This document shows positions 28,824-51,878 of a DNA stretch of 64,000 bases, piece after piece. The translations under genes were made by a program, and so were the position numbers. Below the pieces are notes generated by a model, which ran no database searches, was not told where the DNA came from, and saw only the letters and a list, made by a program, of their open reading frames with translations. This DNA comes from Zobellia uliginosa (GTDB lineage: Bacteria; Bacteroidota; Bacteroidia; Flavobacteriales; Flavobacteriaceae), in contig NZ_JAHKPY010000006.1 of NCBI RefSeq assembly GCF_018860745.1, positions 62,001 through 126,000 on the forward strand, read 5' to 3'. Each line of letters starts with the position of its first letter. Positions within the stretch are counted from its first letter, which is position 1.

Positions 28824-28842
28824 CCCCAAAAAATATAGGGGG
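28824..28842 (+). promoter_or_regulatory. Putative nitrogen operator, distal copy (glnK)
   Basis: Palindrome ATACCCC-N10-GGGGGTAAT: CCCC at 28824-28827, ten A/T bases, GGGGG at 28838-28842. It lies 88 bases before the glnK -7 box and 54 bases before a second copy. The same layout occurs before glnA. Confidence 0.5.
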
Positions 28843-28877
28843 TAATATTCCTATAAACATAAAAATAAGTCATTAGA

Positions 28878-28894
28878 CCCCAAAATTTTAAGGG
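28878..28894 (+). promoter_or_regulatory. Putative nitrogen operator, proximal copy (glnK)
   Basis: ACCCC-N10-GGGTG: CCCC at 28878-28881, ten A/T bases, GGG at 28892-28894. It begins 34 bases before the -7 box, so it covers the -33 region. Confidence 0.5.
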
Positions 28895-28911
28895 TGTTAA
28901 TTATTTTAACA

Positions 28912-28919
28912 TACATTTG
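28912..28919 (+). promoter_or_regulatory. -7 box of glnK-amtB
   Basis: TACATTTG, an exact TAnnTTTG match, 23 bases before ATG 28943. No TTTG lies at -33; two palindromes upstream occupy that area, which suits an activated or repressed promoter. Confidence 0.55.
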
Positions 28920-28942
28920 TTTCTCTAATTAATACAATTATT

Positions 28943-29281
28943 ATGAAACAAATCGAGGCAATTATTAGAAAATCGAAGTTTGATGACGTCAAAAAAGCGT
29001 TACATCAAATAGAGGTTAACTTCTTCAGTTACTGGGATGTAACCGGAGTTGGAAATGAAAAACAAGGTCATGTCTATAGAGGAATTTCCTATAGTACTAG
29101 TGACATTCAAAGAAGATACCTATCTATAGTGGTATCTGACGAATTTGTACAGCGCACAGTTGATACCATTTTGGAAACAGCTTACACTGGCAATGTTGGA
29201 GATGGAAAAATATTTGTTTCCGAAGTTTTAGAGGCATATAGAATTCGCACGAAAGAAAGCGGGCAATCCGGAATCAACTAA
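28943..29281 (+). CDS. glnK: PII signal protein GlnK
   Basis: A 112-residue PII trimer subunit that reports 2-oxoglutarate and ATP/ADP and plugs the ammonium channel AmtB. The T-loop holds GHVYRGISY with Tyr50 at the uridylylation place; the loop is a few residues shorter and different from the enteric one. The C-terminal signature is TGNVGDGKIFV. Position just before amtB (29 bases) marks it as GlnK rather than GlnB. The upstream region carries two CCCC-N10-GGG palindromes. Confidence 0.93.
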   Translation: MKQIEAIIRKSKFDDVKKALHQIEVNFFSYWDVTGVGNEKQGHVYRGISYSTSDIQRRYLSIVVSDEFVQRTVDTILETAYTGNVGDGKIFVSEVLEAYRIRTKESGQSGIN

Positions 29282-29310
29282 AAATTACCAATAACTAAAC
29301 TTTATAGAAA

Positions 29311-30543
29311 ATGGACGCAGGATTATTTACAGCAAATAACGTTTGGATGATGGTGGCTACCGCTCTGGTATTCTTCATGCATACCGGATTCTCCTTTTTG
29401 GAAATAGGTCTAACCAGACAAAAAAATACAATTAACATCTTATTTAAGAACATCTTTATTATTACAGGTGGGCTTTTACTCTATTACGCATGGGGATTTA
29501 ACATGATGTACCCTGGTTTTGAAGAAGGATCTTCAGGAATTTTCGGTTTTGCCGGTTTCGGTATAGCGGCTCCGGAAGGCGGAATGACACCAGACTACGC
29601 AGATGGCGGTTACACATGGTGGACAGACTTCTTGTTTCAAGGTATGTTCGCAGCAACAGCAGCTACTATCGTTTCTGGAGCAGTTGCAGAACGTATTAAA
29701 ATTGGTGCCTTTATGATTTTCACCGTTATTTACGTAGGACTTGTTTATCCTATAGTAGGCGCTTGGAAATGGGGTGGCGGTTTCTTGGATTCATGGGGTT
29801 TCTATGATTTCGCAGGTTCTACATTAGTTCACTCTGTAGGAGGTTGGGCAGCATTGGTTGCTATCTTCTTATTAGGGTCACGTATTGGTAAATTTGATGA
29901 AAACGGTAAGCCAAAAGCAATACCGGGCCATAGTATACCAATGGCAACCGCAGGTGTGCTTATCCTATGGCTAGGATGGTTTGGATTTAACGGTGGTTCT
30001 GTACTATCCGCTGATCCGGAATTAACCTCTCTAGTATTGGTAACTACTAGCTTAGCAGCAGCAGCGGGTGGGTTTGGATCTATGATCTTATCAACTATAC
30101 TTTACAAGAACTTAGATTTAACTATGTTCTTAAACGGTATTCTTGGTGGTCTAGTTGGTATTACCGCAGGTGCAGATTTAATGTCTCCCAATGAAGCCGT
30201 AGTTATCGGTTTCCTAGCAGGTCTGTTAATTGTTCTTGCTGTTTCTCTAGTAGATAAATTGAAATTAGATGATCCAGTTGGTGCCGTTGCAGTACACCTT
30301 GTATGTGGTATCTGGGGAACTTTGGCAGTTGGTCTTTTTGGAGCAAAAGCTGGTGGTGGCCAATTTATGGTTCAGCTATACGGTGTATTGATCATAGGTG
30401 CCTTCTGCGTAATTTGTACATTCATTATCCTAGGTGCCTTAAAAGCTACTATGGGACTTAGAGTAAGCAAAGAAGAAGAGATCGAAGGTCTTGACATTCA
30501 CGAACATGGTATGGATGCTTATCCAGATTTCATAAACGACTAA
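29311..30543 (+). CDS. amtB: Ammonium transporter AmtB
   Basis: A 410-residue ammonium channel with eleven helices. The pore His pair is His174 in TLVHSVGGW and His329 in VHLVCGIWGT. The chain begins MDAGLFTANNVW without a signal peptide. It is regulated by GlnK, whose gene is directly upstream. The cytoplasmic tail GLDIHEHGMDAYPDFIND is the usual GlnK-contact end. The terminator at 30558 separates it, perhaps only in part, from the porin gene. Confidence 0.95.
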   Translation: MDAGLFTANNVWMMVATALVFFMHTGFSFLEIGLTRQKNTINILFKNIFIITGGLLLYYAWGFNMMYPGFEEGSSGIFGFAGFGIAAPEGGMTPDYADGGYTWWTDFLFQGMFAATAATIVSGAVAERIKIGAFMIFTVIYVGLVYPIVGAWKWGGGFLDSWGFYDFAGSTLVHSVGGWAALVAIFLLGSRIGKFDENGKPKAIPGHSIPMATAGVLILWLGWFGFNGGSVLSADPELTSLVLVTTSLAAAAGGFGSMILSTILYKNLDLTMFLNGILGGLVGITAGADLMSPNEAVVIGFLAGLLIVLAVSLVDKLKLDDPVGAVAVHLVCGIWGTLAVGLFGAKAGGGQFMVQLYGVLIIGAFCVICTFIILGALKATMGLRVSKEEEIEGLDIHEHGMDAYPDFIND

Positions 30544-30557
30544 GTATATTAATTAGA

Positions 30558-30588
30558 AACGGAGCGTTTTGCAGAACGCTCCGTTATT
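30558..30588 (+). terminator. Terminator after amtB
   Basis: Stem AACGGAGCGTT / AACGCTCCGTT with a 6-base loop, followed by ATTTA. The T tail is short, so it may attenuate rather than stop transcription into the porin gene. Confidence 0.7.
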
Positions 30589-30658
30589 TACCACTTTCAA
30601 AATCTTAATAGATTTCAATTCAATCATTCCAAAACAGGGATAACTAAATAAAATTATA

Positions 30659-31729
30659 ATGAAAGCGATTACAAATACAAAATACGTAAAAAATCTATTT
30701 TTCCTAGCGGTACTACTTTTCTCTGCAACAATTGTTGTTGCTCAAGAAGAAGAGGAAGAAGAGTCTAAACCTAAGTTTTCTTTTAGCGGTTCTGTTGATG
30801 CGTATTACCGAGCAAATTTAAATGCTCCTAACGGAGTAGATGCCCAGGCTCCAGGAAGTTCATTCGCTAACTTACCAGGATTTGCTTTGGGTATGGCCAA
30901 TGTTATTGGTGCTTACGAAGGCGAAAAAGTAGGTTTTGTGGCTGATTTAGTTTTCGGTCCAAGAGGAACGGATGCTATTTTTGCTTCTCCAATGTATTCT
31001 TCTACCGGAAACATCGTTAACCAATTGTATGCTTACTGGAATGTAAGTGATGCCGTAACCTTAACTTTTGGTAACTTCAATACTTTCTTAGGTTATGAAG
31101 TAATCTCACCGGTTGCCAACTTTAACTACAGTACATCTTACCTGTTCTCATATGGTCCGTTTTCACATACCGGTTTAAAAGCTGATTTTGCTTTATCTGA
31201 TGATTTCAGCTTAATGCTAGCGGTAATGAACCCAACTGATCTTACAGAGTTCAACCCAACAGGCCAGTACGCTTGGGGAGCTCAATTAGGCTACAGCGGT
31301 CAATACTTGAACCTTTTAATTGATAACGGTTCTTACGAAGTAGATTTCACAGGTGGTTTTGACCTTTCGGATACTTTCTTCCTAGGTCTTAACGCTGCTT
31401 ATTTTGATGGTGACGAAGATGACGGTGTTGGTAGCTTTGCAGGTCTTGCAGTTTACCCACAGTTAGCTACTTCCGATACTTTCTCAATAGGTCTAAGAGG
31501 TGAATATTTTGCTGAAACTGATTTCTTTGGAGCAGTTGGAGGAACCGATGCAGATGGAGATGCGAGCGTATTTGCTGTTACTTTAACAGGAAGCGCTACT
31601 ATTGGTGATTTGATCATCAAACCTGAATTAAGATTAGACAGCGCTTCAGAAGAAGTATTCATTGACAATGATGGAAACCCAATTGGAGGTCTTTCTTCTT
31701 TTGTGTTGGCTGCGGTCTACTCTTTCTAA
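30659..31729 (+). CDS. Outer-membrane porin (beta-barrel)
   Basis: A 356-residue barrel protein. The signal peptide (about 1-29, ending VVAQ) is followed by a Glu-rich stretch EEEEEES, then strands such as FSFSGSVDAYYRAN, AVTLTFGNFNTFLGY and the end FVLAAVYSF, an outer-membrane C-terminal pattern. It fits the outer-membrane beta-barrel family that often follows amtB in flavobacteria, so it may admit nitrogen compounds; this is inferred from position only. No promoter of its own was found. Confidence 0.8.
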   Translation: MKAITNTKYVKNLFFLAVLLFSATIVVAQEEEEEESKPKFSFSGSVDAYYRANLNAPNGVDAQAPGSSFANLPGFALGMANVIGAYEGEKVGFVADLVFGPRGTDAIFASPMYSSTGNIVNQLYAYWNVSDAVTLTFGNFNTFLGYEVISPVANFNYSTSYLFSYGPFSHTGLKADFALSDDFSLMLAVMNPTDLTEFNPTGQYAWGAQLGYSGQYLNLLIDNGSYEVDFTGGFDLSDTFFLGLNAAYFDGDEDDGVGSFAGLAVYPQLATSDTFSIGLRGEYFAETDFFGAVGGTDADGDASVFAVTLTGSATIGDLIIKPELRLDSASEEVFIDNDGNPIGGLSSFVLAAVYSF

Positions 31730-31782
31730 AAAAAGAATTATAATGGTTAAGTGTTTATAATTTAAGTTAAGCTAATTCAAAT

Positions 31783-31814
31783 AAAGACCTCAACGTTTAA
31801 TCGTTGGGGTCTTT
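31783..31814. terminator. Terminator between the porin and DUF1684 genes
   Basis: Stem AAAGACCTCAACG / CGTTGGGGTCTTT with one T-G pair and a 6-base loop. It is followed by AGCTTTTTA on the plus strand. It overlaps the DUF1684 stop by two bases. Confidence 0.75.
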
Positions 31815-32463
31815 AGCTTTTTATAGGTTTAAAAGCTTTAACCCCAGCAAGTATTTCCGTATCCAAATTATTAACACTTGGTACAATAGGACACGAAAAC
31901 TTTTTATTGTAAGCACAGTATGGATTATACGCTTTGTTAAAATCTATAATTATAGTTTCACCAGCGGGAATGGTTAAATCTATATACCTGCCGCCTGTAT
32001 ACGTTTGCACACCATTAGTATTGTCGGTAAAAGGCAGAAATAAATAATCTCTATATTTTTCCTGCAGCATCAATTCTTTGTTTTGGTACACTTCTAATTG
32101 CCTGTTCTTTCCGTTAAGCGTGAAATGAGCAATACCATAAACCGTTTCCTCAGATTCATCCCCAGTTGTACTTGGCATCATAAATGGCAGTGCCTCGGGC
32201 GTACGAACAAATTTAGCAGTTACTACATAAGTGGTGTCCGGAGCAAAGAAATCCAATGTCTCAAAGTTCTTTCGGTAACGATCTGGCAAAGGTGATGTCT
32301 CAGGATTTTTAAATTCTTCGTTCTTTTCCTTTTGATAGTTCAAAATAGCCTGCAAGGCACCTGTTTCAAGAACAACTTCTTGCTTTTCCGGTGCATCATG
32401 ATACTTCTTGTCTGTCTTACAGCTTAAAACCGTTAGGCAAAGAATTAAAACAATAATTCGCAT
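31813..32463 (-). CDS. DUF1684 lipoprotein
   Basis: A 216-residue lipoprotein. The signal peptide ends in the lipobox VLSC (about Cys15), then KTDKK. The DUF1684 domain holds EEFKNPETSPLP, YGIAHFTLNGK, YLFLPFTDNTNG and the hallmark end IIIDFNKAYNPYCAYN. The family role is unknown. ATG 32463 is used because an in-frame start at 32532 adds 23 residues before the signal peptide. On the minus strand TATTTTTG at 32488-32481 is a likely -7 box. Confidence 0.85.
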   Translation of the reverse strand: MRIIVLILCLTVLSCKTDKKYHDAPEKQEVVLETGALQAILNYQKEKNEEFKNPETSPLPDRYRKNFETLDFFAPDTTYVVTAKFVRTPEALPFMMPSTTGDESEETVYGIAHFTLNGKNRQLEVYQNKELMLQEKYRDYLFLPFTDNTNGVQTYTGGRYIDLTIPAGETIIIDFNKAYNPYCAYNKKFSCPIVPSVNNLDTEILAGVKAFKPIKS

Positions 32464-32547
32464 AAAATTTAATTTTACCACAAAAATACAATATAAAGTT
32501 ATTAACCTATTCGAACCAATTGTACATTGCAACTCAAAATATTGTAA

Positions 32548-33285
32548 ATGAACAGAATTTTCCCATTATTGCTTCTTATAGTCACTATTTTCTCCTGCAA
32601 TACTCCAAAAGAAGAGACTAAGACCATCGCGCATTTAAAAAGGGTATTACCAGAAATTTCACCTGACAGATATAACGTAGCCTTCCTTATCATGGACGGC
32701 ACCTTCAATACCGAACTAACAGCTCCCTTCGATATTTTTCAGCATACCAAATTCAGAAAAAACATCAAGGCCATGAATACTTTTACCGTGGCAAATACAT
32801 TGGAGCCTATAACCACTTTTGAAGGTATGCGCCTATTGCCTGATTTTGATTATACCAAAGACGACCTACCTCCCATAGATATTTTAGTAATACCCAGTGC
32901 AGAACACCATTTAGATACAGATTTAAAGGATACTGTTATGCTAGACTTTGTCCGAAAAGTTGATAGCACAGCACTATTTATGACCAGCCACTGCGATGGT
33001 GCTTTTGTGTTGGCCAAAGCCGATGTGCTTAAAGGAAAATCCTCTACCACATTTCCTAGCGACATTGATACCTATAAAAAAATGTTCCCCGATTTAAAAG
33101 TAGCGGATAGTGTTCTTTTTGTTCACGATGGAAAATATATTACTTCGGCAGGAGGCGCCAAAAGTTTTGAAGCCGCCCTATATCTATGCGAGCATTTATA
33201 CGGAAAAGAAGTGACCGATGCTCTGGCAAAAGGTTTAGTTATAGATTGGAACTTAAAAAAAATCCCACACCTAATTATAAAATAA
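32548..33285 (+). CDS. DJ-1/PfpI-family lipoprotein
   Basis: A 245-residue lipoprotein. The signal peptide ends at FSC (about Cys17) and is followed by the DJ-1/PfpI fold from about residue 40. The nucleophile Cys149 is in TSHCDGAFVLA, and VIPSAEHHL is nearby. It resembles the GATase1-like group near AraC-type regulators, but lacks a DNA-binding part. No partner enzyme is adjacent. Role unknown. The coding strand is divergent from the DUF1684 gene. Confidence 0.82.
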   Translation: MNRIFPLLLLIVTIFSCNTPKEETKTIAHLKRVLPEISPDRYNVAFLIMDGTFNTELTAPFDIFQHTKFRKNIKAMNTFTVANTLEPITTFEGMRLLPDFDYTKDDLPPIDILVIPSAEHHLDTDLKDTVMLDFVRKVDSTALFMTSHCDGAFVLAKADVLKGKSSTTFPSDIDTYKKMFPDLKVADSVLFVHDGKYITSAGGAKSFEAALYLCEHLYGKEVTDALAKGLVIDWNLKKIPHLIIK

Positions 33286-33291
33286 CCCTTT

Positions 33292-34707
33292 CTACTCTTC
33301 AATTATGGTGTAGCGAGCATCTTTCAAATACTTTTCAACCAACTCATTAAACTCCGGTGTAATGCGTAATAAAGCCGTATTTTCTAATGCGTAAAGTTCG
33401 TTGCGGTTAGTATATCCTTTTTTGAGAAGTTCCTCCAAATAAAAAAGTGCCGTTCCGTAATCATCTGTTTTAGCCGTATAGGATATGATTTTCAGATAAC
33501 TATCAAAATTATCGGGTTCTATAATCGTCTTCAACATCCATAAAAAATTCAGGGCCTCACTATCAATTGGGGTTTCTGCACTTAACACATCTACATTATC
33601 GGAAACCAATGCCTTTACATAACCCTCCAAACGTTTGCCCATTTTTTGCTGAAGGACCTCAGGGCTTTTTTGGAATTTCTGAAGTTCTTCCATCTGGTAC
33701 TTCCACCATCCCAAATTATTATAATTGTAAGTTATAATATCCTCCTCTAAATAATAATTATACTCCTCCTTAATTAAACTTTCTTTTAAATTTAGTGAAT
33801 TCTGAGTTCTATTTTGCTCTCTAAATAATCGGCTTTTCCTCAAAGTTTTTCTACTTGTTTTTATAGAGTCCAAAGACATATAAGGCTGATAAATTTCGGA
33901 CATCTCTGCCAACCAACTATCTGCCAACAAAGGTTTGCTTTCCGTATACAACCTATTTACCTTGACAAAATCCTCTTTATAACTTGCATCTACATATGCC
34001 GTATCTTTTGGCACATGACCTTTAGCCATGGCAGATAGGGTCAAAAGTTTTAATGCCGAACTAAGTTCTTTCGTTTTTGGCCATTCACGACCTCCATCAA
34101 AAACCAACAATTGGTTGGGAAATTTTAATCTATTTAACAATTTCTCTATCGTAAGCATCTCTGGATATGTAAAATCCTCATCGCCCACAATTCCAACATA
34201 ATGAAATGGATTCCTACTGGTAAGTACCCCTATATTCGCTACCGAAGCACCACAGGCAACTACTCCTTCTACCTCTTTTATAAAAGTAGGAATCAAAGTT
34301 GAAAACCTACCACCGCTAGAAAAACCACTTGTATATATACCATGATTTCTTATTGGTAACATATTTGCTACCGTACTGAACATTCTACTGGTAATCAAAA
34401 CATTCTTGGAAATAGACAAAGTATCACTAATGCTATTGGAAGCAGCAAGTATATAACCCTGCTCTTCTGCAGCTGCCCTATACATAGATAAAGCCTGCCT
34501 ACCTCTACCGTCCATGTCAAAAACAAAAATTACAGGCCAAGCTTTTGAAACATCAAATTTCTTAGGCAAGTACAATGAAAATGTTTCGGGAACCGTATCA
34601 TTAACCACAAGAGAATCTATAATCACACCTTTCTTTAGCGTGATATTATTTTGGGCCAACCCAACAAAAACGGTACAAAAGGCCAACAACAGTAGTGTTT
34701 TTTTCAT
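33292..34707 (-). CDS. Secreted alpha/beta hydrolase
   Basis: A 471-residue exported protein. The signal peptide (about 1-18, ending GLAQ) precedes an esterase-like fold with VIFVFDMDGRGRQ and the nucleophile elbow GFSSGG (Ser about 150). Residues after about 270 form a helical, possibly repeat-like region with DYGTALFYLEELLKKG. A serine hydrolase is likely, but the substrate is unknown. It is convergent with the DJ-1 gene (6-base gap). Confidence 0.75.
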   Translation of the reverse strand: MKKTLLLLAFCTVFVGLAQNNITLKKGVIIDSLVVNDTVPETFSLYLPKKFDVSKAWPVIFVFDMDGRGRQALSMYRAAAEEQGYILAASNSISDTLSISKNVLITSRMFSTVANMLPIRNHGIYTSGFSSGGRFSTLIPTFIKEVEGVVACGASVANIGVLTSRNPFHYVGIVGDEDFTYPEMLTIEKLLNRLKFPNQLLVFDGGREWPKTKELSSALKLLTLSAMAKGHVPKDTAYVDASYKEDFVKVNRLYTESKPLLADSWLAEMSEIYQPYMSLDSIKTSRKTLRKSRLFREQNRTQNSLNLKESLIKEEYNYYLEEDIITYNYNNLGWWKYQMEELQKFQKSPEVLQQKMGKRLEGYVKALVSDNVDVLSAETPIDSEALNFLWMLKTIIEPDNFDSYLKIISYTAKTDDYGTALFYLEELLKKGYTNRNELYALENTALLRITPEFNELVEKYLKDARYTIIEE

Positions 34708-34796
34708 AAAAATTAAATCATCAAAAATCTAGCCAAAAGCCGAACCTATAGGATTTTTGCTCACTGCGCATATCGCAACTACAGTACAAGATTAGA

Positions 34797-35621
34797 TTAC
34801 TCCCCTATTTTACCTATTTCTACGCCTTCTGAGTAAGCCACTTTAATATCATGTTTACTAAAGGCTCTTTTAATATACTTATTTGCATTGAAGGTAACTT
34901 CCCAAAAATCATCCGGCAGAACATACGGTCTAACGATCAATTGTACATTATGAGAATCAAAATCTAAGATTCCTATTTCCGTTTCCGGTTCTTGGAGTAT
35001 TTTTGGAACCTCTTTTAAAGCTTCCCTTAAGACCTCTTTAACTCTGGGAAAACTTTCCTCGTATGGCATTGTCACTTCCAACTCCAGTCTAATCATTCCT
35101 TTTTCGGAATAATTGGTCACTACAGATTCTGTAATCATGGAATTAGGGATGATTAATATTTTGTTTCCAGGAGTAAGCACATCTGTACTGAAAATACCTA
35201 TTTCAACCACTCTACCGAACTTATCTTCTACCTGAATCCAATCTGATACTTTAAACGGTTTTAGGGTAAGAATAAGAATACCCGAAGCAAAATTCCCTAA
35301 GCTTCCTTGCAAAGCCATACCCACTGCAAAGGCAGCTGCAGCCAATATTGCGAATAGACCTGTTAAATCTGCCCCAAGCACGGTTGCAATAACAAAAAGC
35401 ACCGTACCTTTTAAAAGCACACCAACTATAGATGATAAAAAAGGACGTAAGGTTTCAGAAAAACCGGTCTTTTCCAAAGCTTTCCCAACAAGCTCAACTA
35501 TTTTTTTGACAAGCTTAAAGCCAATCCACAAAATGAGACCTGCTAAGAAAATTCGCGGTACATAAAAAATTACCTTATCCGTGGCTATCTGAGCGTACTC
35601 ATTAATTTTGTCCAAATCCAT
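34797..35621 (-). CDS. MscS-family mechanosensitive channel
   Basis: A 274-residue small MscS-type channel, close to the length of E. coli MscS (286). Three helices lie in about 15-115, with the Gly/Ala-rich pore helix AVGMALQGSLGNFASGIL. The vestibule domain follows to the C-terminus. The gene is alone in its transcription unit. It is a second, distinct copy beside that at 18507, with more conventional length. Confidence 0.92.
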   Translation of the reverse strand: MDLDKINEYAQIATDKVIFYVPRIFLAGLILWIGFKLVKKIVELVGKALEKTGFSETLRPFLSSIVGVLLKGTVLFVIATVLGADLTGLFAILAAAAFAVGMALQGSLGNFASGILILTLKPFKVSDWIQVEDKFGRVVEIGIFSTDVLTPGNKILIIPNSMITESVVTNYSEKGMIRLELEVTMPYEESFPRVKEVLREALKEVPKILQEPETEIGILDFDSHNVQLIVRPYVLPDDFWEVTFNANKYIKRAFSKHDIKVAYSEGVEIGKIGE

Positions 35622-35752
35622 GAATTAAAATTAATAATTAGAGTCCACTCTCCTACAGAAAGTTCATTTTTTTATTCATTTAATATTAAAAACCTTGAAA
35701 AAACAACTATTAGAAGGATGTTTGGTGATGCTCAACACAAGAATCCGTATTA

Positions 35753-42315: not shown

Positions 42316-42328
42316 TTTTTTTCGGAAA

Positions 42329-43185: not shown

Positions 43186-44262
43186 TTAAAAAATCTCGGA
43201 AGCTTCTTTTAGTTTTTCGGTATTCTCTACAAAACTTAATTCATCAATTATTTTCTGAATATCCCCATCTATTATGTTTTGCAAATCGTAAAGCGTTAAT
43301 CCAATACGGTGATCTGTTACACGGCCTTGCGGATAATTGTATGTTCTAATCTTAGCCGATCGGTCACCGCTACTTACCTGAGAGTTACGTTTGGCCGCAT
43401 CCTCTTCTTGTTTTTTGGCAAGTTCAAGATCATATAGACGCGAACGCAACACTCTAAAAGCCTTATCCTTGTTCTTATGCTGTGATTTTTGATCCTGGCA
43501 CTGCGCCACCAATCCTGTTGGAATGTGAGTAAGACGCACCGCAGAGTAAGTCGTATTCACCGACTGACCACCTGGGCCAGAAGAACAGAAAAAATCTATC
43601 CGGACATCTTTGGGTTCAATCTGAACATCAAAATCTTCCGCTTCAGGAAGTACCATTACCGTTGCAGCACTGGTATGAACCCTTCCTTGTGTTTCTGTCT
43701 GTGGAACACGTTGCACGCGGTGTACACCCGCCTCAAACTTAAGCGTTCCGTAAACATCTTTCCCAGTAACTTCAAATTGGATTTCTTTGTAACCGCCACT
43801 GGTGCCTTCACTTAAATCTATAACGTTGGTCTTCCAGCCCTTGCTCTCGCAATACTTGGTATACATACGGAATAGATCTCCTGCAAAAATACTAGCTTCA
43901 TCACCTCCGGTTCCTGCTCTAATTTCAACCACGACGTCTTTGGCGTCTTCTGGGTCTTTAGGTATAAGCATTAATTTAATTTCCTCTTCTAATTCCGGTA
44001 AACCTCCTTTAGCCTCATCTAATTGCATTTTGGCCATTTCAACCATCTCTGCATCACTCCCGTCCGCAATAATCTCCTCTGCTTCTTGAATATTATTAAG
44101 CAACTCAATGTATTGCTCACGCTTAGCTACAAGCTCCTTCAAATCGGAATATTCCTTGGTTAATCCTACATAGCGCTTTTGATCCGAAATAATATCCGGC
44201 TGAATAATAAGGTCGGAAACCTCATCAAAACGCTGCTTAACTATATTGAGTTTATCTATCAT
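43186..44262 (-). CDS. prfA: Peptide chain release factor 1
   Basis: A 358-residue factor that reads UAA and UAG and triggers peptide release. The codon-reading tripeptide, PAT in E. coli, is Pro-Gln-Thr here (187-189 in [10 protein letters not shown]), as far as I recall normal in Bacteroidota. The catalytic GGQ is at 231-233 in [10 protein letters not shown]. Length matches RF1. It is upstream of pyrF and divergent from the membrane protein gene at 44321. Confidence 0.95.
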
Positions 44263-44320
44263 TATCTTGCATCACTTGTATTGCGAATTTACGACAAATT
44301 TGTACATTTATTGATATACC

Positions 44321-44650
44321 TTGGTTTTGATAAAAAGCTTATTTCATCTACGCACCTATCATATAGTCTTTCTATTCTACCGTTCTTTGTTAGTTTTTTC
44401 TACTGCAATAACCCTGCTTCAGTATGTATTACTTAGGTCTTCAGGCTCAACCGGAATGGCAATAAAAATCCTGACATCCAAGTTTTTTTTGATTCTTTTA
44501 TACTTTGCTTTTACATTTATAGGCCCAACAAATAAAAAACTGGTGTTCTATAAAAATTTTGGGATTTCCACTATTCGATTATTTTTTATCTGTTTTGTTA
44601 TGGATGCTATTCTTTCCATAATTACCGTTCAAATCCTCAATCTATTTTGA
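44321..44650 (+). CDS. Small membrane protein of an ABC micro-operon
   Basis: A 109-residue, very hydrophobic protein with about three helices (about 18-42, 51-68, 82-107) and no recognised domain. It begins with TTG 44321 (MVLIKSLFHLRTYH), the first start that keeps all helices. Its TGA overlaps the TTG start of the next gene by 4 bases (TTGA), showing translational coupling to an ABC ATPase. It is therefore a likely membrane partner, but it is far shorter than normal ABC permeases. Confidence 0.65.
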   Translation: MVLIKSLFHLRTYHIVFLFYRSLLVFSTAITLLQYVLLRSSGSTGMAIKILTSKFFLILLYFAFTFIGPTNKKLVFYKNFGISTIRLFFICFVMDAILSIITVQILNLF

Positions 44651-45294
44651 AACTAGAAATAGACAACATAGAACTCAGTTTTGACCACAAACGTATCTTG
44701 TACGGTATATACTTAAAGGCCGAAACCGGAAAAATTACAGGCCTTTTAGGTCGGAATGGCTGCGGAAAAACATCCTTGCTACGTATTCTATTTGGAAGCC
44801 TCACTCCTAAATATTTAAACATAAGGATAGATGGCGTTCATCAAAAAAGAAAATTATTTAAATACGGAAATATCGCTTACTTACCTCAACATCAATTACT
44901 ACCAGAAGGACTTAAAGCATACAAAGCCTTCAATTATTTTAATGCAGATTGGCAACTGTTCATCTCTACTTTTCCTTCTTTTGAAAAATACAGGAATAAT
45001 AGTGTTGAAGAATTAAGTTCTGGAGAACTCCGCGTTATTGAAACGTATTTGATATTGAATTCAAACAAAAAAATCATCTTATTAGATGAACCGTTTTCAT
45101 TTATAGCTCCTGTTTATGTAGAAAAGATGATAGCACTTATTGAAATAAAAAAGCAGGATACCGTAATTGTCATAACAGACCATTTTTACAAGGAAATAAT
45201 GGGAATTAGTGATACTGTTTATATTTTGAAAGAAGGCTCTTGCAAACAGATAAATTCTTTAAAAGACCTAAGAAACGAAGGCTATATTATCTAA
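44647..45294 (+). CDS. ABC ATPase paired with a small membrane protein
   Basis: A 215-residue ATPase. Walker A is GRNGCGKTS (about 35-43), Q-loop YLPQHQ, signature LSSGELR, Walker B KIILLDEPFSF, and the switch His in VIVITDHFY. It starts at TTG 44647, overlapping the membrane protein stop. Because no larger permease is adjacent, the two may form a compact system or the ATPase may serve a permease encoded elsewhere. The function is unknown; export or a signalling use are both possible. Confidence 0.85.
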   Translation: MKLEIDNIELSFDHKRILYGIYLKAETGKITGLLGRNGCGKTSLLRILFGSLTPKYLNIRIDGVHQKRKLFKYGNIAYLPQHQLLPEGLKAYKAFNYFNADWQLFISTFPSFEKYRNNSVEELSSGELRVIETYLILNSNKKIILLDEPFSFIAPVYVEKMIALIEIKKQDTVIVITDHFYKEIMGISDTVYILKEGSCKQINSLKDLRNEGYII

Positions 45295-45319
45295 GATATC
45301 CATATTATTAACTAAGAAT

Positions 45320-46315
45320 TCAGGGTTTCTCATTCAATAATATACCACTACTCTTATATACTTTATTAGCATTATCTATTAGAATAACATCCGTACCTCC
45401 TAATTGATTTATTAATGCGAGTCCATCTTCTTTGCCCATAATGTAGACTGCCGTAGCCAATGCATCACAAAGTTCGGCGCTTTTTGCAAAAATAGATACA
45501 CTATTCACACCCTCTGCCGGATAGCCTGTTCTAGGATTTAAGATATGAGAGTATTTTAATCCCTCAAAAATGACATATTTTTCTGAATCCCCGGAAGTTG
45601 CTACCGAAGATTCCACAACGGGCAACCAAGAAAATATCTTATCCTTACTTAACGGATTGGCAATACCAATCAGCCATTTTTCTCCGGTTGCTTTAGTTCC
45701 CCACGTTGTAAGGTCTCCAGCTGCGTTTATTATACCTCCTTGAACTTGTTTGGACACCAAAAGTTCCTTGGCCTTATCTGCAGCATAACCCTTACCAATA
45801 GCCCCAAAAGAAATTTTCATACCCTTCTTACTCAAATACACGGTTCTTTCCAACGGATTTAAAATTATTTTCTCATGACCTACTGTTTCCAAAGCCTTAC
45901 TCACCTCTTCCGGTGTTGGAACTTTGACCATAGACCCATCAAATTTCCAAATATCATAGAGGGAAGCATAAGAAATATCAAAAGCGCCATCCGTTATTTC
46001 CGAAATCTGTTTTGCACGCTCAATCAACATAAAGAGTTCCTGACTGACCTTTACGGGCTTTACCCCAGCGTTAAGATTTATCAAGGAAGTTTCCGAATCT
46101 GGATTCCATGATGAAATCATATTTTCTATCCGAACAATTTCTGCAGTGGCCTCTTCTATATTTATATATCCTAAATCTTCATTAGTGGATACCACAGTAA
46201 TATCAAACCGTGTTCCCATAAGCTCCATAGCCTTGTGCACGGTCACTAGTTTCTTTTCCTGGGCAAAGCCATAGGATAAGAAGAAAAAAGAAAGTATGTA
46301 AAATACTATCCTCAC
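45320..46315 (-). CDS. apbE: FAD:protein FMN transferase ApbE
   Basis: A 331-residue exported enzyme that links FMN to Ser/Thr of partner flavoproteins. The signal peptide (about 1-18, ending GFAQ) is followed by MGTRFDITV, MISSWNPDSETSLIN, ISFGAIGKGYAADKA and GYPAEGVNSVSIFA; a conserved Asp lies in AELCDALATAVYIMG. The GTG start at 46315 overlaps the thioredoxin stop by one base. It is the last gene of a Rieske-thioredoxin-ApbE unit. Confidence 0.92.
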   Translation of the reverse strand: MRIVFYILSFFFLSYGFAQEKKLVTVHKAMELMGTRFDITVVSTNEDLGYINIEEATAEIVRIENMISSWNPDSETSLINLNAGVKPVKVSQELFMLIERAKQISEITDGAFDISYASLYDIWKFDGSMVKVPTPEEVSKALETVGHEKIILNPLERTVYLSKKGMKISFGAIGKGYAADKAKELLVSKQVQGGIINAAGDLTTWGTKATGEKWLIGIANPLSKDKIFSWLPVVESSVATSGDSEKYVIFEGLKYSHILNPRTGYPAEGVNSVSIFAKSAELCDALATAVYIMGKEDGLALINQLGGTDVILIDNANKVYKSSGILLNEKP

Positions 46316-46746
46316 TAGAACATAGATTTTAGATGTGTTATATACTCATTAGGAGAAAGTTTTAAATACCCCGTTTGCCCCAAAACTTCCGCATCTCCAT
46401 TTAATAAAACCACCAAAGGAAAATGACCTTTGGGATTATATTTTTCAGCTAGCCTATGATTTTGGGCGGTCATTGCCTCACTAAGTCTGTTCGCTTTTTT
46501 TCTTGGAAAATCTGCTTTGTAAAGAATTAAATCAGATTTGGAGAAGCTCTTGAAATCTTCAGACTCCCATATCGCCTTTTCTAACTTCATACAAGGTGCA
46601 CACCAATCTGAACCAGCAAAAACCAATAATAGGCCTTTATTATTTTTCTTTGCCAAAGCTTGAGCGTTTGCAAAGTTTTCCTGCCAATCCTGGGCCGAAA
46701 TAGAGGCAACCATACTCAAACAAAACAAAAATAAAATCTTCTTCAT
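46315..46746 (-). CDS. Exported thioredoxin-fold protein (CAPC)
   Basis: A 143-residue exported thioredoxin-like protein. The signal peptide (about 1-19, ending SISA) precedes the motif C49-A-P-C52 in GSDWCAPCMKLE; the cis-Pro lies in KGHFPLVVLL. It would act as a periplasmic thiol:disulfide or DsbD-like reductase. It overlaps apbE by one base and follows the Rieske gene by 28 bases. Confidence 0.9.
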   Translation of the reverse strand: MKKILFLFCLSMVASISAQDWQENFANAQALAKKNNKGLLLVFAGSDWCAPCMKLEKAIWESEDFKSFSKSDLILYKADFPRKKANRLSEAMTAQNHRLAEKYNPKGHFPLVVLLNGDAEVLGQTGYLKLSPNEYITHLKSMF

Positions 46747-46774
46747 ATTGATGTTAAAACAAATTCAGTGCCAT

Positions 46775-47221
46775 TTATTCATAAATGCGCAACATTGTAC
46801 CTGTCAATTCGGTTTTAAAAATCTTTAATGTTTTTGCCGTTGCACCATCTACTTGGTTCAATGGCGCTCCATTTTGTTCAAAACGGGACCCATGCACATC
46901 ACAATAAAAGATGCCTCCATCCGAATCTACAAAGCGTACTTCTTCATAACCTTGGTGGCTACAAACTTGACTAGCGGCAACAAATTCACCCTCCAAATTC
47001 CTAGCTATCACCACCAAATTTTTTAATACAAAACCGCCATTATCGGCAAGTTTTGCATTAGCAGGTTCGTCCAAATCAATTGTAAAATCTATTCCGGTAG
47101 GTATTGGGGTATTCCCTTCGGTTTCTTCATCATTATCGCTAGAACAGCCATGTAAACATGGAAAAGCAATAGCAAATGCCGCGCTGGCTCCTAAGCTTTT
47201 TAAGAACTGTTTTCTTTCCAT
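46775..47221 (-). CDS. Exported Rieske [2Fe-2S] protein
   Basis: A 148-residue exported iron-sulfur protein. A hydrophobic N-terminus ends HGC (Cys26) and gives a probable lipoprotein, with an acidic linker after it. The cluster ligands are Cys87 and His89 (QVCSHQG) and Cys107 and His110 (YCDVHGSRF). It is a stand-alone Rieske domain, not the bc1 subunit. First gene of the unit with thioredoxin and ApbE; the group suggests periplasmic electron transfer. Confidence 0.88.
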   Translation of the reverse strand: MERKQFLKSLGASAAFAIAFPCLHGCSSDNDEETEGNTPIPTGIDFTIDLDEPANAKLADNGGFVLKNLVVIARNLEGEFVAASQVCSHQGYEEVRFVDSDGGIFYCDVHGSRFEQNGAPLNQVDGATAKTLKIFKTELTGTMLRIYE

Positions 47222-47272
47222 AACACTGTTGTTTACTAAAGAAAACGAACTAATGATACGATTCGTATGCCT

Positions 47273-48451
47273 TTAATAAACAAACTTACCACAAGTACTC
47301 TCTATTGTAAGTTTTTTAGAGGCACTAGCCTCTACCCTACCCACAATCTGAGCTTCTACACCAAAACTTTCCGATATTGCTATTAAATCTTTAGCAACAG
47401 CTTCGTTCGTATAAATTTCAAGACGATGGCCACAATTAAAAACCTGATACATTTCTTTCCAGTCCGTACCGGATTGTTCTTGAATTAATTTAAAAAGCGG
47501 CGGAACAGGAAAAAGGTTGTCCTTAACAATATGGAGCTCATCAACGAAGTGAAGAATTTTAGTTTGTGCACCACCACTGCAGTGCACCATACCATGAATA
47601 TCTTCGGAAGTATACGTATTCAAAATTTTCTTTACAATTGGTGCATAGGTACGTGTTGGTGACAGCACCAATTTACCCGCGTCCACAGGCACACCATCAA
47701 TTTTGTCCGTCAATTTCGTATTACCCGAATATACCAAATCAGCAGGCACGGATGCATCAAAACTCTCCGGGTATTTCTCAGCAAGATATTTTGAAAAAAC
47801 ATCGTGTCTAGCAGAAGTAAGTCCGTTACTCCCCATTCCCCCATTATATTCCTTCTCGTAAGTAGCTTTTCCAAAAGAGGCCAAACCAACTATAACATCT
47901 CCTGCTTTTATATTTGCGTTATCTATAACGTCTTCTTTCTTTAAACGCGCCGTAACCGTAGAATCCACAATTATAGTACGGACTAAATCACCTACATCTG
48001 CAGTTTCTCCACCAGTAGAACGTATGGTCAACCCATGTTCCGCCAAGTCATTTATAAGCTCCTCGGTACCATTAATTATTTCTGATATCACCTGACCGGG
48101 AATCAAATTTTTATTTCGTCCAATGGTAGAAGAAAGCATAATATTATCCGTAGCCCCAACACAGATAAGGTCATCTATGTTCATAATAAGTGCATCTTGC
48201 GCAATTCCTTTCCAAACGGATAAGTCTCCTGTTTCCTTCCAGTACATATACGCCAACGAAGATTTTGTACCCGCACCATCTGCATGCATTACCAAACAAT
48301 AATCTTCATCATTAGTTAAGTAATCCGGCACAATTTTACAGAACGCCTTTGGAAAGAGTCCCTTATCAATATTCTTTATAGCATTGTGCACATCTTCTTT
48401 TGAGGCGGAAACTCCTCTTTGGCTATACCTTTCACTGTTAGATGAACTCAT
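47273..48451 (-). CDS. purM: Phosphoribosylformylglycinamidine cyclo-ligase
   Basis: A 392-residue AIR synthase that closes the imidazole ring in purine synthesis. The nucleotide site appears in DYCLVMHADGAGTKS, with the domain core VGLASFGKATYEKEYNGGMGSNGLTSARHD and CSGGAQTKI. It is longer than the E. coli enzyme (345) with the Bacteroidota arrangement. The -7 box at 48468-48475 lies 16 bases before ATG 48451. Confidence 0.93.
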   Translation of the reverse strand: MSSSNSERYSQRGVSASKEDVHNAIKNIDKGLFPKAFCKIVPDYLTNDEDYCLVMHADGAGTKSSLAYMYWKETGDLSVWKGIAQDALIMNIDDLICVGATDNIMLSSTIGRNKNLIPGQVISEIINGTEELINDLAEHGLTIRSTGGETADVGDLVRTIIVDSTVTARLKKEDVIDNANIKAGDVIVGLASFGKATYEKEYNGGMGSNGLTSARHDVFSKYLAEKYPESFDASVPADLVYSGNTKLTDKIDGVPVDAGKLVLSPTRTYAPIVKKILNTYTSEDIHGMVHCSGGAQTKILHFVDELHIVKDNLFPVPPLFKLIQEQSGTDWKEMYQVFNCGHRLEIYTNEAVAKDLIAISESFGVEAQIVGRVEASASKKLTIESTCGKFVY

Positions 48452-48467
48452 TATTATGGCTTTTTGG

Positions 48468-48475
48468 CAAAAATA
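48468..48475 (-). promoter_or_regulatory. -7 box of purM
   Basis: The minus strand reads TATTTTTG, an exact TAnnTTTG match, 16 bases before ATG 48451. Confidence 0.45.
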
Positions 48476-48535
48476 AGGTATTCACCGAATAATCATAGCT
48501 TGACAAAAAAAACTTTCAAAAAGTTCTTAAATCGA

Positions 48536-49384
48536 TTAAAATTTATGATAAACACCGCCACCAATAACTGCTCTTTTTGGTACATTGGCCCCTGAAATAG
48601 CTGAAGTATAATTAGCTAGTACACCTATTTTTTCGGTAATTTCTATAATTCCCTTTATACCGTAAGCAACATATTCCTGATCATTCAAATACAGTCCTGT
48701 GGCCAAATTAGCTTCCGGAAGTATAACCTCTCCGTTTTCAAAAGAAGTTGAAAAATCAAGAAAACCAATAAGCCAAAGTCTCTTTATCGGTTTTACACCA
48801 GCTTCAGCGCTAGCTCTAAAATTTGAACTATAGTCATTAAAACGAATATCAACTCCTGTAGATGCCTGAACAAAGAAATTATCATAACCTCTACCAATAT
48901 TCAGTCTTGGAGATAATGTAAATGTATCATAACCACTTCTAAGTCCGGATGCCTCAAAATAGTTTCCGGTGTTGGCCTCAATATTAAATTGACCGGAAAT
49001 CACCCATTTATTGTTATAAAGTTGATGTTTTACGCCAACGACCAAATTACCCAAAGCAGTTTCAGAACCATTTGAAGTAATAGGTATGCCATTAGCAGAT
49101 GATACTACATCGCCAGCTTTTATCATTTTAATAGGTAGACTTAATAAAACAGTAGTCTTATCAGAAATACCATATTCACCAAAAAGTTGAAGGGTGTTAT
49201 CTGTTATTTTACGCTCGGTTCTATAATCGGGATTTCCGTAGATACCGGAATAGCCAGCTATATTATAATAAGATAGTTGAACGTAAGCTTCGTTTTTTGC
49301 TTTTGTCCACGCTCCCTGAGAAAAAAGAGAAATAGAAAATAAAAAAAGCAAGGTGAAAAGGTATTTTTTTACAGTACTATGCAT
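48536..49384 (-). CDS. Outer-membrane barrel protein
   Basis: A 282-residue exported protein. The signal peptide (about 1-22, ending SQGA) is followed by alternating strands typical of a small outer-membrane barrel: AYVQLSYYNIAGYSG, TVLLSLPIKMIKAGD, DNFFVQASTGVDIRF and the end RAVIGGGVYHKF (terminal Phe). No fixed function. The 130-base upstream region contains two TTAGCTAA palindromes and a C-rich half-site (CCCCCTAAAA) like that before glnA. Confidence 0.72.
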   Translation of the reverse strand: MHSTVKKYLFTLLFLFSISLFSQGAWTKAKNEAYVQLSYYNIAGYSGIYGNPDYRTERKITDNTLQLFGEYGISDKTTVLLSLPIKMIKAGDVVSSANGIPITSNGSETALGNLVVGVKHQLYNNKWVISGQFNIEANTGNYFEASGLRSGYDTFTLSPRLNIGRGYDNFFVQASTGVDIRFNDYSSNFRASAEAGVKPIKRLWLIGFLDFSTSFENGEVILPEANLATGLYLNDQEYVAYGIKGIIEITEKIGVLANYTSAISGANVPKRAVIGGGVYHKF

Positions 49385-49444
49385 CTTTAAAATATTTACA
49401 ATATTCCCTACTTAGTATATCTTTTCACCGCTCCCTTACATCCA

Positions 49445-49474
49445 TTTAGCTAATTTTTAGGTGTTTTAGCTAAA
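49445..49474 (-). promoter_or_regulatory. Paired TTAGCTAA palindromes, exact 20-bp period
   Basis: Core TTAGCTAA at 49446-49453 and 49466-49473, exactly 20 bases apart, about two helix turns. This is the layout of a dimer-of-dimers operator. It lies 61-90 bases upstream of the outer-membrane gene at 49384. Confidence 0.4.
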
Positions 49475-49513
49475 GTGATCTATGATTTCCCCCTAAAACA
49501 GAAAAAAGGATTT

Positions 49514-51700
49514 TTATTTAATGGATAACAATTCGCGATACTTGGTAAGCGGCCAATACCTATTATCTACCAACCTTTCCAATTTATCGCAATGCATCCG
49601 TATTTCATCAAAATACGGCTTTACATTATCACTGTAAGCAAAGGCTTTTTTATGTGTATCCGTTAGTTTGTTTGCCTTCCTTCTTGCATCGGTCATAGCG
49701 TCCGTCTGCTTTTTAAGATCAGTAATATGCTCTGCAACTTGTTCTATAATTCCTGATTGGCCATCCGTTAACTTCCTATGAGCAGCACCATATATTTCTT
49801 TGAGACCCAATACATTTTTTATCAAAATATTCTGATACTCCACAACCGACGGAATGATGTGATTGTACACCAATTCATTGAGAACCCTACCTTCTATTTG
49901 AATGTGTAAAATATAAGCTTCCAATTCTACTTCCTGTCTTGCGGCCACCTCTTTCTCACTCATAACGCCCATAGAATCAAAAAGGTCTAGACTTGTTTTT
50001 GAGGTCAAAATCCGTAAAGCTTGCGGAGTGTTCTTATTGTTGCTTAATTTTCTTCTTCTCGCTTCTTTTTCCCATTCATCACTATAGCCATCACCATCAA
50101 AACGAATACGTTTGGAAGTTTTAATATACTCACGCAGCACATTAAAAACGGCTTCATCCTTTTTGAGACTCTTTTTATCTACCAGTGCATCTACTTCCTT
50201 TTTAAATTCCTGTAGTTGCTTTGCCACAATAGTATTTAAAATTGTCATGGGTTTTGCACAATTGGTTTTGGCCCCAACACCACGCATCTCAAACTTGTTT
50301 CCGGTAAATGCAAAAGGAGACGTGCGGTTACGATCCGTATTATCCAATAAAATTTCCGGAATTTTACCCACTACATTTAATTTAAGCTCCGTTTTCTCCT
50401 CCGGTGATAATTTTCCTTTGGACACCCCTTCTAACTCATCCAAAACATTACTTAACTGCTTACCAACAAATATGGATAAGATTGCCGGAGGCGCTTCATT
50501 AGAACCCAATCTATGGTCGTTACTAGCAGATGCAATAGAGGACCGTAAAAGCTCCTCATAAGTATCTACCGCTTTAATGGTATTGATAAAAAACGTTAAG
50601 AATTGAAGGTTCTTCATTGGTGTAGAGCCTGGACTCAATAAATTTACACCTGTATCCGTAGCCAAAGACCAATTATTATGCTTTCCCGAACCATTGATAC
50701 CAGCAAATGGTTTTTCGTGAAAAAGGACCTTAAGTTGATGCCTATCCGCTATCCGATCCATCACATCCATTAGAAGTAGGTTGTGATCCACCGCTAAATT
50801 TGCTTCTTCAAAAACAGGTGCTAATTCAAACTGATTAGGAGCTACTTCATTATGCCTTGTTTTTAAAGGAATGCCCAAAAGCATACATTCTACCTCCAAG
50901 TCCTTCATAAAATTAATTGCCCTCAGTGGTATAACGCCAAAATAATGATCATCTAACTGCTGACCTTTTGCCGCGGAATGGCCCACAAGTGTTCGCCCTG
51001 TTAAACTGATATCAATTCTTGAGAGAGCAAGTTCTTTATCCACCAAAAAATATTCCTGCTCCCAACCTAAAGTTGCGCTAACTTTTACCACAGTCTTATC
51101 AAAATACCGAGCAACAGCTGTAGCCGCTTCATCTACTGCACTTAAAGCACGTAATAAAGGTGCCTTATTATCCAAAGCCTCCCCGGTATACGATACAAAT
51201 ATTGTAGGTATACACAACGTAGTATCATATACGAAAGCCGGACTAGTGGGGTCCCAAGCCGTATATCCTCTAGCTTCAAAAGTATTACGGATTCCTCCAC
51301 TGGGAAAACTAGAGGCATCGGGTTCTTGTTGTACCAACTGGCCACCGCCAAACTTCTCTAAAGCCCTCCCATCTGGCATAAGATCAAAAAAAGCGTCATG
51401 CTTCTCTGCTGTTGCACCAGTAAGTGGCTGAAACCAATGTGTGTAATGGGTAGCACCCATTTCAATAGCCCATGACTTCATGGACTCCGCTACCTGATCA
51501 GCTATTTTCCTATCAATTTTCGAACCTGAAAATATTGCCCCTTGAACACTTGCCAAAGCATCCTTGGTTAAATATTGTAGCATGCGTTCATTATTAAATA
51601 CGTTGTTCGCATAAAGCTCTGACCTACGCCCCTTTTCATCAACACTTACGCGTTCCCTTTTTCGGCTCTGGGCAATAGCATCAAATCGCTGTCTAGACAT
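49514..51700 (-). CDS. glnN: Glutamine synthetase, type III
   Basis: A 728-residue ATP-dependent glutamine synthetase of the type III class typical of Bacteroidota and cyanobacteria. Catalytic blocks include VSATLGWEQEYFLVD, MKTRHNEVAPNQFELAP-like RHNEVAPNQFELAPV, and GINGSGKHNNWSL. It fixes ammonium into glutamine in the cytoplasm as a dodecamer. Divergent from the type II enzyme gene, with a 212-base shared intergenic region that carries the CCCC-N10-GGG palindrome. Confidence 0.95.
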   Translation of the reverse strand: MSRQRFDAIAQSRKRERVSVDEKGRRSELYANNVFNNERMLQYLTKDALASVQGAIFSGSKIDRKIADQVAESMKSWAIEMGATHYTHWFQPLTGATAEKHDAFFDLMPDGRALEKFGGGQLVQQEPDASSFPSGGIRNTFEARGYTAWDPTSPAFVYDTTLCIPTIFVSYTGEALDNKAPLLRALSAVDEAATAVARYFDKTVVKVSATLGWEQEYFLVDKELALSRIDISLTGRTLVGHSAAKGQQLDDHYFGVIPLRAINFMKDLEVECMLLGIPLKTRHNEVAPNQFELAPVFEEANLAVDHNLLLMDVMDRIADRHQLKVLFHEKPFAGINGSGKHNNWSLATDTGVNLLSPGSTPMKNLQFLTFFINTIKAVDTYEELLRSSIASASNDHRLGSNEAPPAILSIFVGKQLSNVLDELEGVSKGKLSPEEKTELKLNVVGKIPEILLDNTDRNRTSPFAFTGNKFEMRGVGAKTNCAKPMTILNTIVAKQLQEFKKEVDALVDKKSLKKDEAVFNVLREYIKTSKRIRFDGDGYSDEWEKEARRRKLSNNKNTPQALRILTSKTSLDLFDSMGVMSEKEVAARQEVELEAYILHIQIEGRVLNELVYNHIIPSVVEYQNILIKNVLGLKEIYGAAHRKLTDGQSGIIEQVAEHITDLKKQTDAMTDARRKANKLTDTHKKAFAYSDNVKPYFDEIRMHCDKLERLVDNRYWPLTKYRELLSIK

Positions 51701-51784
51701 ACTTTTACTTTTATTTATATCGGCTAAAATAAGTATTACCGAATTAATAATAAATTCTGGAAAAAATCAACTTACCACAAAATA

Positions 51785-51801
51785 CCCCGTTAAAATTAGG
51801 G
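51785..51801 (+). promoter_or_regulatory. Putative nitrogen operator, distal copy (glnA)
   Basis: ATACCCC-N10-GGG: CCCC at 51785-51788, ten bases (mostly A/T), GGG at 51799-51801. It lies 86 bases before the glnA -7 box, as at glnK (88). It also lies 85 bases upstream of glnN, so it could serve both genes. Confidence 0.5.
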
Positions 51802-51835
51802 CAATCGTAAATAATATTCAATTTTTTCATATTTA

Positions 51836-51851
51836 CCCCCCTAAAAATTAG
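51836..51851 (+). promoter_or_regulatory. Putative nitrogen half-site, proximal (glnA)
   Basis: TTACCCCCCTAAAAATTAG has the CCCC arm (51838-51841) with the same A/T core but lacks the GGG arm. It begins 33 bases before the -7 box, as the proximal copy does at glnK (34). Confidence 0.35.
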
Positions 51852-51870
51852 TATAATTCAACAAAAAACA

Positions 51871-51878
51871 TATTTTTG
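51871..51878 (+). promoter_or_regulatory. -7 box of glnA
   Basis: TATTTTTG, an exact TAnnTTTG match, 34 bases before ATG 51913. Confidence 0.5.

Follow-up and report, generated by a model that had tools for sequence, protein, structure and literature searches.

A 64-kb stretch of the 4.86-Mb genome of Zobellia uliginosa (positions 62001-126000 of the contig labelled C12), called the window in the following, carries two groups of nitrogen-assimilation genes, glnK-amtB and glnA with the divergent glnN. Upstream of both glnK and glnA a pair of sites based on the palindrome ACCC-N11-GGGT, two full copies at glnK and a full and a half copy at glnA, precedes a -7 promoter box at closely similar distances; this arrangement is indicated as the double site.

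The features are listed in Table 1. Open reading frames of the window were checked with Pfam (20 of them) and with NCBIfam (10). The P-II protein encoded by glnK shares 97% identity with its counterparts in Zobellia amurskyensis and Z. russellii. For glnN, the name type III glutamine synthetase (GSIII) is one that we presume from size and gene order; its homologues are found in 150 of the 158 genomes of the class.

Table 1. Positions of the elements and genes discussed (window numbering, except for the last row, numbered within locus L387)
Feature	Position	Strand	Remarks
Distal palindrome of glnK-amtB, ACCC-N11-GGG(G)	28823..28841	+	Centre at about -91
A-tract TAAAAAT between the palindromes	28860..28866	+	About -61; conserved in the 79-sequence glnK table
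Proximal palindrome of glnK-amtB, ACCC-N11-GGGT	28877..28895	+	Centre at about -38
Second palindrome TGTTAATTATTTTAACA, TGTTAA-N5-TTAACA	28895-28911	+	Between proximal site and -7 box, abutting the latter
-7 box TACATTTG of the glnK promoter	28912-28919	+	Match to TAnnTTTG
glnK, P-II protein	28943..29281	+	NCBIfam P-II models, best 1.7e-23, under curated cut-offs
amtB, ammonium transporter	29311..30543	+	TIGR00836, above cut-off
OmpL-like porin (BBP2)	30659..31729	+	Pfam PF07642
glnN, divergent, type-III-like glutamine synthetase	49514..51700	-	728 aa; weak NCBIfam glutamine-synthetase matches
Distal palindrome of glnA, ACCC-N11-GGG(C)	51784..51802	+	
Proximal site of glnA	51835..51853	+	Inner ACCC half kept, outer GGG half lost
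-7 box TATTTTTG of the glnA promoter	51871-51878	+	
glnA, GlnII-like glutamine synthetase	51913..52929	+	NCBIfam NF041605, 9.4e-111, below curated cut-off
MerR match, MliR-like	L387:1471-1797		109 aa

Conservation of the double site

The preliminary description of this stretch had reported ATACCCC-N10-GGGGGT at 28824 and ACCCC-N10-GGGT at 28878 in front of glnK, ATACCCC-N10-GGG at 51785 in front of glnA, and a further CCCC half-site at 51838. These strings are present as described, the last one within a C-run (51836-51841) of which 51838 starts the last four C. Distances recomputed from the -7 boxes also agree with the reported ones: 88 and 34 bases for glnK, 86 and 33 for glnA, with copies spaced by 54 and 53 bp, about five helix turns. 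The register given for them, CCCC-N10-GGG, is to be refined: the invariant core is CCC-N11-GGG, within ACCC-N11-GGGT.

As a bare string, CCCC-N10-GGG is close to chance. When both strands of the window are searched it is found four times, always at the three named sites, one of which is counted on both strands; the expectation by shuffling is 2.4 per 64 kb, and 23 of the 100 shuffles reach four. The string is therefore weak evidence; it is the double site that is rare in shuffled or random DNA. What goes beyond chance is the pairing, the position and the conservation of the sites, rather than the string itself.

Orthologous promoters were evaluated in two sets, both made of close relatives, since the glnK set contains the best 80 of at least 530 relatives, and the glnA set the best 30 of the 70 genomes with a match. 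A pair was defined as two ACCC-N11-GGGT sites scoring at least 12 out of 16, 50-56 bp apart. Presence of the motif upstream of orthologues had been chosen beforehand as the observation on which the proposal should stand or fall: the pair is found in 79 of the 80 glnK loci and, in the correctly oriented glnA set, in 27 of 30. As controls for glnK, 800 base shuffles gave it once, and 344 random pieces of 250 bp from the same loci gave it 7 times. One of the 79 scoring loci, L100, has an unusual layout. Psychroflexus-type glnK loci (L088, L100, L193) lack the usual pair, and feature one extended palindrome, for example AACACCCCCTAAAAATTAGGGGGTGTT.

The geometry is nearly constant. If any spacing from 40 to 66 bp is allowed, 52-54 bp is the value in 75 of the 79 paired glnK loci; from the first base of the proximal site to the -7 box the distance is 34-36 nt in 69 of the 75 glnK loci having a box. 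The CCC and GGG triplets are conserved at 91-100% and enclose mostly A/T. Conservation of the sites relative to their flanks is evident when nine distinct genus-level sequences are compared: no substitution is seen at any of the 16 half-site bases or of the 8 bases of the -7 box, whereas 41 of 116 positions are invariant in the upstream flank and 18 of 35 in the spacer. At glnA, the inner GGG is intact in 26 of the 27 double-site loci, the inner CCC, belonging to the proximal site, in 24, and the outer GGG in none: the half-degraded proximal site of the window is thus the pattern of glnA in its relatives.

A second palindrome, TGTTAATTATTTTAACA, absent from the preliminary description, is present at glnK only. 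It conforms to TGTNA-N7-TNACA, reported as the GlnR/TnrA site consensus in the available passages of PMC9249791. Exact matches to this consensus occur in 26 of the 80 glnK regions (1.0 in shuffled sequences) and in none of the 30 glnA regions (0.4 shuffled). They sit 17 nt before the -7 box in 18 of the 26; in the remaining 8, all from Arenibacter, they lie upstream of the distal site. The form TGTTAA-N5-TTAACA is found exactly in 64 of 408 loci (1.44 Mb, with overlapping copies), and in all 64 of them glnK follows within 260 bp. The second palindrome is separate from the shared motif and specific to glnK, where, by a narrow preference, we take it to add a further input.

Genes behind the double site

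The double site was modelled as a 102-position sequence profile in two versions: training of R1 included the glnK and glnA promoters of the window, that of R2 was based on sites from the same family. In the Z. uliginosa genome the search gives two strong places, glnK and glnA, whose E-values are circular because both promoters were in the R1 training set; a third place, gltB, outside training, has E = 0.0017. The profile was then run on 60 genomes of the family at a cut-off of E <= 3e-4, and 48 of them have a match. The resulting places were typed by mapping known proteins onto them. Excluding the places beside glnA matches and the glnK-like places of Z. uliginosa itself and of the genomes G001, G011 and G075 (those of G011 and G075 encode glnK), 60 places were examined; among these, ald, gltB, glnN and porin places are outside the training set, while some glnK places come from training genomes.

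In 58 of the 60 places the start of glnK, amt, glnN, gltB, ald (alanine dehydrogenase) or a BBP2 porin lies within 420 bp, the other two (L247, L253) having no target gene. The largest group, 19 places, is formed by gltB with a divergent BBP2 porin; gltB is found without it in two more, and the porin alone in one. Eleven places precede glnK-amtB, two glnK alone, one glnK and gltB, and two amt alone. Both ald and glnN account for 8 places, and four more combine glnN with a glnA label, which in L402, L403 and L405 is due to cross-homology of glnN. Three places of terminator-like appearance (L233, L250, L251) are counted among the 58. With a single-site profile over seven genomes, the 20 weaker places that were fetched turned out to be coding DNA, terminators or unrelated genes; about 12 weaker matches were left aside. 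What emerges is a small regulon that seems dedicated to ammonium assimilation.

In the 19 gltB-porin places the site adjoins the porin and lies 291-324 bp from the start of gltB, which makes control of the porin surer than that of gltB. So constant a distance suggests that gltB has a long leader whose length is conserved (L238, L241, L258, L264-L267, L270 and others); in L267, the one locus searched, the leader has no Rfam match.

The BBP2 porin is downstream of 20 of the 60 places, sometimes followed by amt, and a porin-like cluster is present in 76 of the 80 glnK loci. Homologues of the porin found in the window behind amtB have, elsewhere, the double site immediately upstream. Co-occurrence of the BBP2/OmpL-like porin with ammonium transporters is also seen in L235, L238, L240 and L262-L267. 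The porin seems to be co-regulated with ammonium transporters, and may provide a channel for ammonium or amines in the outer membrane; that these transporters are linked to one porin family suggests that the uptake of ammonium or amines includes a step at the outer membrane.

The same predicted operator thus precedes related but unlinked operons in many species. As far as sequence comparison can establish it, the palindromes are the operator of a nitrogen-assimilation regulon, with fixed spacing, defined target genes and conservation. The proposal of a shared control of the ammonium genes is strongly supported, and is to be widened: around one operator, the targets extend to glnN, ald, further amt genes, the porin and probably gltB.

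Traces of the double site are found also outside the order, at GSIII promoters. Taking a G-run separated by 33-38 bases from a C-run as the pair of inner half-sites, one finds it in 10 of the 24 closest loci, where shuffling predicts 0.31, and in 7 of 40 promoters drawn from the various families of the class, where it predicts 0.74; with a stricter pair pattern, the latter become 6 of 40 (about 1.1 expected). Two probably false pairs, L339 and L362, are counted in these tallies. Where GSIII genes of other orders have such a pair, the CCC is followed after 12-17 nt by the -7 box, which is thus closer than at glnK by about two helix turns. The module therefore probably predates the order, and its position relative to the promoter has moved; that other orders re-use it two helix turns nearer to the -7 box is a reading that we favour slightly. 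The distal half-site of these promoters is often extended to GGGGGTGTTRATAAA (L325, L327, L328, L330, L334, L337), which suggests a longer recognition sequence.

Promoter layout and mode of control

In Flavobacterium psychrophilum, TAnnTTTG is located at -12 to -5 according to the available passages of a published mapping (PMC9723704). With the start position taken from this -7 consensus, which is that of another flavobacterium, the glnK palindromes fall at about -38 and -91. A TTG at -33 is at chance level, both for glnK (8 of 75 promoters, 7.4 expected) and for glnA (1 of 23, 2.2 expected). The spacing of 52-54 bp would fit two cooperating dimers. Between the palindromes, columns 37-43 of the 79-sequence glnK table reach 70-94% for a single base: the A-tract at this position is a possible site for the alpha subunit of RNA polymerase.

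At class III promoters of Escherichia coli two CRP dimers, at about -41 and at -91 or -93, share one face of the helix, with the alpha subunit between them. Spacing, -7 offsets and the chance level of the -33 TTG are those of a class III-type layout; the two-dimer arrangement is shared with CRP, but the operator agrees with that of CRP neither in sequence nor in half-site spacing. The lack of a -33 element, a site over -38, an in-phase site at -91 and the A-tract between them favour an activator. The best explanation, which we consider probable, is one dedicated nitrogen regulator of the Bacteroidia, acting on paired operators by class III-like activation. In Flavobacteriaceae, two dimers would occupy the ACCC-N11-GGGT sites near -38 and -91, on the same helix face, and would recruit sigma-A RNA polymerase to TAnnTTTG promoters devoid of an evident -33 element, in a way resembling paired CRP dimers at class III promoters, with the alpha subunit of the polymerase probably placed on the A-tract between them. 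We infer that the protein is dimeric or tetrameric, that its copies cooperate, that it activates, and that it responds to nitrogen or to a 2-oxoglutarate/glutamine signal.

A number of observations weigh against such an activated regulon, or against its extent. Twelve of the 60 family genomes have no profile match, under strict filters. The gltB site, about 310 bp off and beside a divergent porin, makes the control of gltB uncertain. In the distant P-II sample, of which 11 of 18 loci were examined, ten P-II genes from other families of the class have no double site, the eleventh, L193, from the same family, having one extended palindrome. The pair is absent from 33 of the 40 GSIII promoters across the families of the class and, by the same test, from 5 of the 6 GSIII genes of the same order (the sixth has it, with 0.01 expected). 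Outside the order, GSIII promoters were also searched for a -33 TTG, starting from 15 loci, L339 and L362 being left out: among the 13 in which a loosened pattern locates a -7 box, 7 have it (1.7 expected), a layout that would suit a repressor. Finally, the sense of control may differ, since orthologues in Prevotella rise with ammonium: in the available passages on P. ruminicola, amtB, glnK, glnN-2 and gltBD are 27- to 69-fold higher when ammonium is not limiting, and no DNA-binding regulator is named for them (PMC5552732).

The same regulon could be governed by a repressor, as two cooperative dimers that loop or wrap about 53 bp of DNA and block polymerase at the proximal site when nitrogen is plentiful, in the manner of GlnR in Firmicutes. 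Looping repressors commonly use two operators in phase, and the proximal site overlaps the promoter, at about -38 in glnK and glnA and between -33 and -7 in the GSIII promoters outside the order, more than half of which carry the -33 TTG just mentioned. At glnK and glnA themselves, in contrast, that element does not exceed chance, so that polymerase probably needs help there, and sites at -38 and -91 flanking an A-tract are laid out as for an activator: repression is possible, but rather unlikely. That the palindromes act in transcribed RNA, as hairpins or terminators, is far less credible. Stems of the CCCC..GGGG type do resemble flavobacterial terminators, and a few matches of the model look terminator-like (L233, L250, L251 and a palindrome between asnB and gyrB); yet the glnK and glnA sites are paired, keep a fixed distance upstream from the -7 box and have no T-tracts, and the decayed half at glnA would break the hairpin. 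Nor does Rfam place a family at the sites, either in the window, searched at gathering scores, or in 8 loci searched at E up to 1, where four weak matches fall elsewhere.

Genes of the glnA and glnK type are, in other bacteria, classical targets of NtrC with sigma-54 and of NtcA, and control of this type was tested with consensus strings. Allowing two mismatches, the sigma-54 string is found in 3 of the 80 glnK regions (1.4 shuffled) and in none of the 30 glnA regions, the NtrC string in none of either; exact GTA-N8-TAC, for NtcA, is found in one of the 80 (7.2 shuffled) and in two of the 30 (3.2 shuffled). A sigma-A -7 box stands, instead, at a fixed place. Available passages on the sigma-54 regulon of F. 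psychrophilum name no ammonium-assimilation gene (PMC9723704), and those of a survey describe the sigma-54 nitrogen regulon as fading beyond listed classes, which do not include Flavobacteriia (PMC12316311). Such control is nearly excluded. A different question is the identity of the regulator, where a MerR protein comparable to GlnR and TnrA, MliR, might be the Bacteroidota counterpart of GlnR, acting as either activator or repressor. Contacts at 6-8 bases from an A/T centre make the sites resemble those of the MerR-type GlnR and TnrA: CCC and GGG occupy, at +-6 to 8, the positions of TGT and ACA in TGTNA-N7-TNACA (available passages of PMC9249791), and a GlnR-type palindrome is also present at 28895. 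When the Z. uliginosa genome is scanned, just two MerR matches are found, on contigs C2 and C13, with glnA on C12: one, of 299 aa, is upstream of a desaturase-like gene; the other (Table 1) would be, given its matching length, the orthologue of MliR from Bizionia, which is described as sharing domains with TnrA and GlnR (available text of PMC9478572). In the parts of that study which deal with the deletion of mliR, however, mostly iron and metal-transport genes are changed in rich medium, with asnB lowered, and its main text, as far as available, does not mention glutamine or glutamate (PMC9478572). No nitrogen-assimilation gene is found in the 3.2 kb around the Z. uliginosa gene. A homologue is present in 150 of the 158 genomes of the class, with or without the motif, so that its distribution decides nothing. 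MliR is, on these grounds, a doubtful candidate.

Relation to known nitrogen-control systems

The genes controlled are of the same kind as in the NtrC, GlnR, NtcA and AmtR regulons, while operator and promoter layout differ. One close likeness is with GlnR/TnrA of Firmicutes, also a dedicated nitrogen regulon with glutamine synthetase and ammonium transport, also based on a palindrome with an AT-rich centre and half-site contacts at a comparable distance from it. Yet the GlnR/TnrA operator is TGTNA-N7-TNACA, while here ACCC-N11-GGGT occurs as a fixed pair about 53 bp apart, in front of a TAnnTTTG-type promoter and, in Z. uliginosa, with no regulator gene found beside glnA. Nor is the GlnR/TnrA operator shared by the two loci of the window: it is absent from the glnA regions and, at glnK, corresponds to the separate second palindrome. 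With NtrBC/sigma-54 of Proteobacteria the targets glnA and glnK-amtB are in common, but the promoter found here is of vegetative type. AmtR of Corynebacterium, from the TetR family, and NtcA of cyanobacteria are dedicated nitrogen regulators with overlapping target genes; their operators are not known to be related to ACCC-N11-GGGT, NtcA being the one compared by sequence.

A literature search on titles and abstracts, covering few subscription journals, found no nitrogen regulator or operator for Bacteroidota, an absence to be taken as indicative. On balance we lean towards a nitrogen-control system belonging to the Bacteroidia, separate from NtrC, NtcA, AmtR and GlnR and with its own regulator on paired ACCC-N11-GGGT sites. 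With similarly guarded confidence, the set under its control would comprise ammonium uptake, P-II, both glutamine synthetases, alanine dehydrogenase, the porin and, probably, glutamate synthase (GOGAT). Bacteroidota predominate in guts and, in the sea, are major degraders of polymers. Precise operator, targets and fixed geometry make the predicted regulator directly findable, and the double site usable as a low-nitrogen reporter.

When open reading frames were inspected by eye, without profiles, as clusters around 80 glnK loci, in a set of 40 loci and in 29 GSIII loci, no transcription factor could be recognised that recurs next to the sites; likewise, the single-site profile, over its seven genomes and the 20 places fetched, revealed no regulator gene preceded by a convincing site. 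By the geometry of their sites, the Lrp/AsnC, LuxR/NarL, LysR and Crp families were considered as well. Proteins that we take to be BlaI-like are encoded near some glnN genes, with one exchanger gene in between (L177, L245, L249, L259). A sodium/calcium-exchanger-like gene, recognised by Pfam at 54297-55235 of the window, is a recurrent neighbour of glutamine synthetase (L177, L245, L249, L255, L259, L260).

A single palindrome near ACCCCATAAAATATGGGGT is found between asnB and gyrB, by a TATATTTG box, and is conserved in several members of the genus (L001, L222, L227, L229). Its role may be that of a terminator acting in both directions, or of an operator for gyrB.

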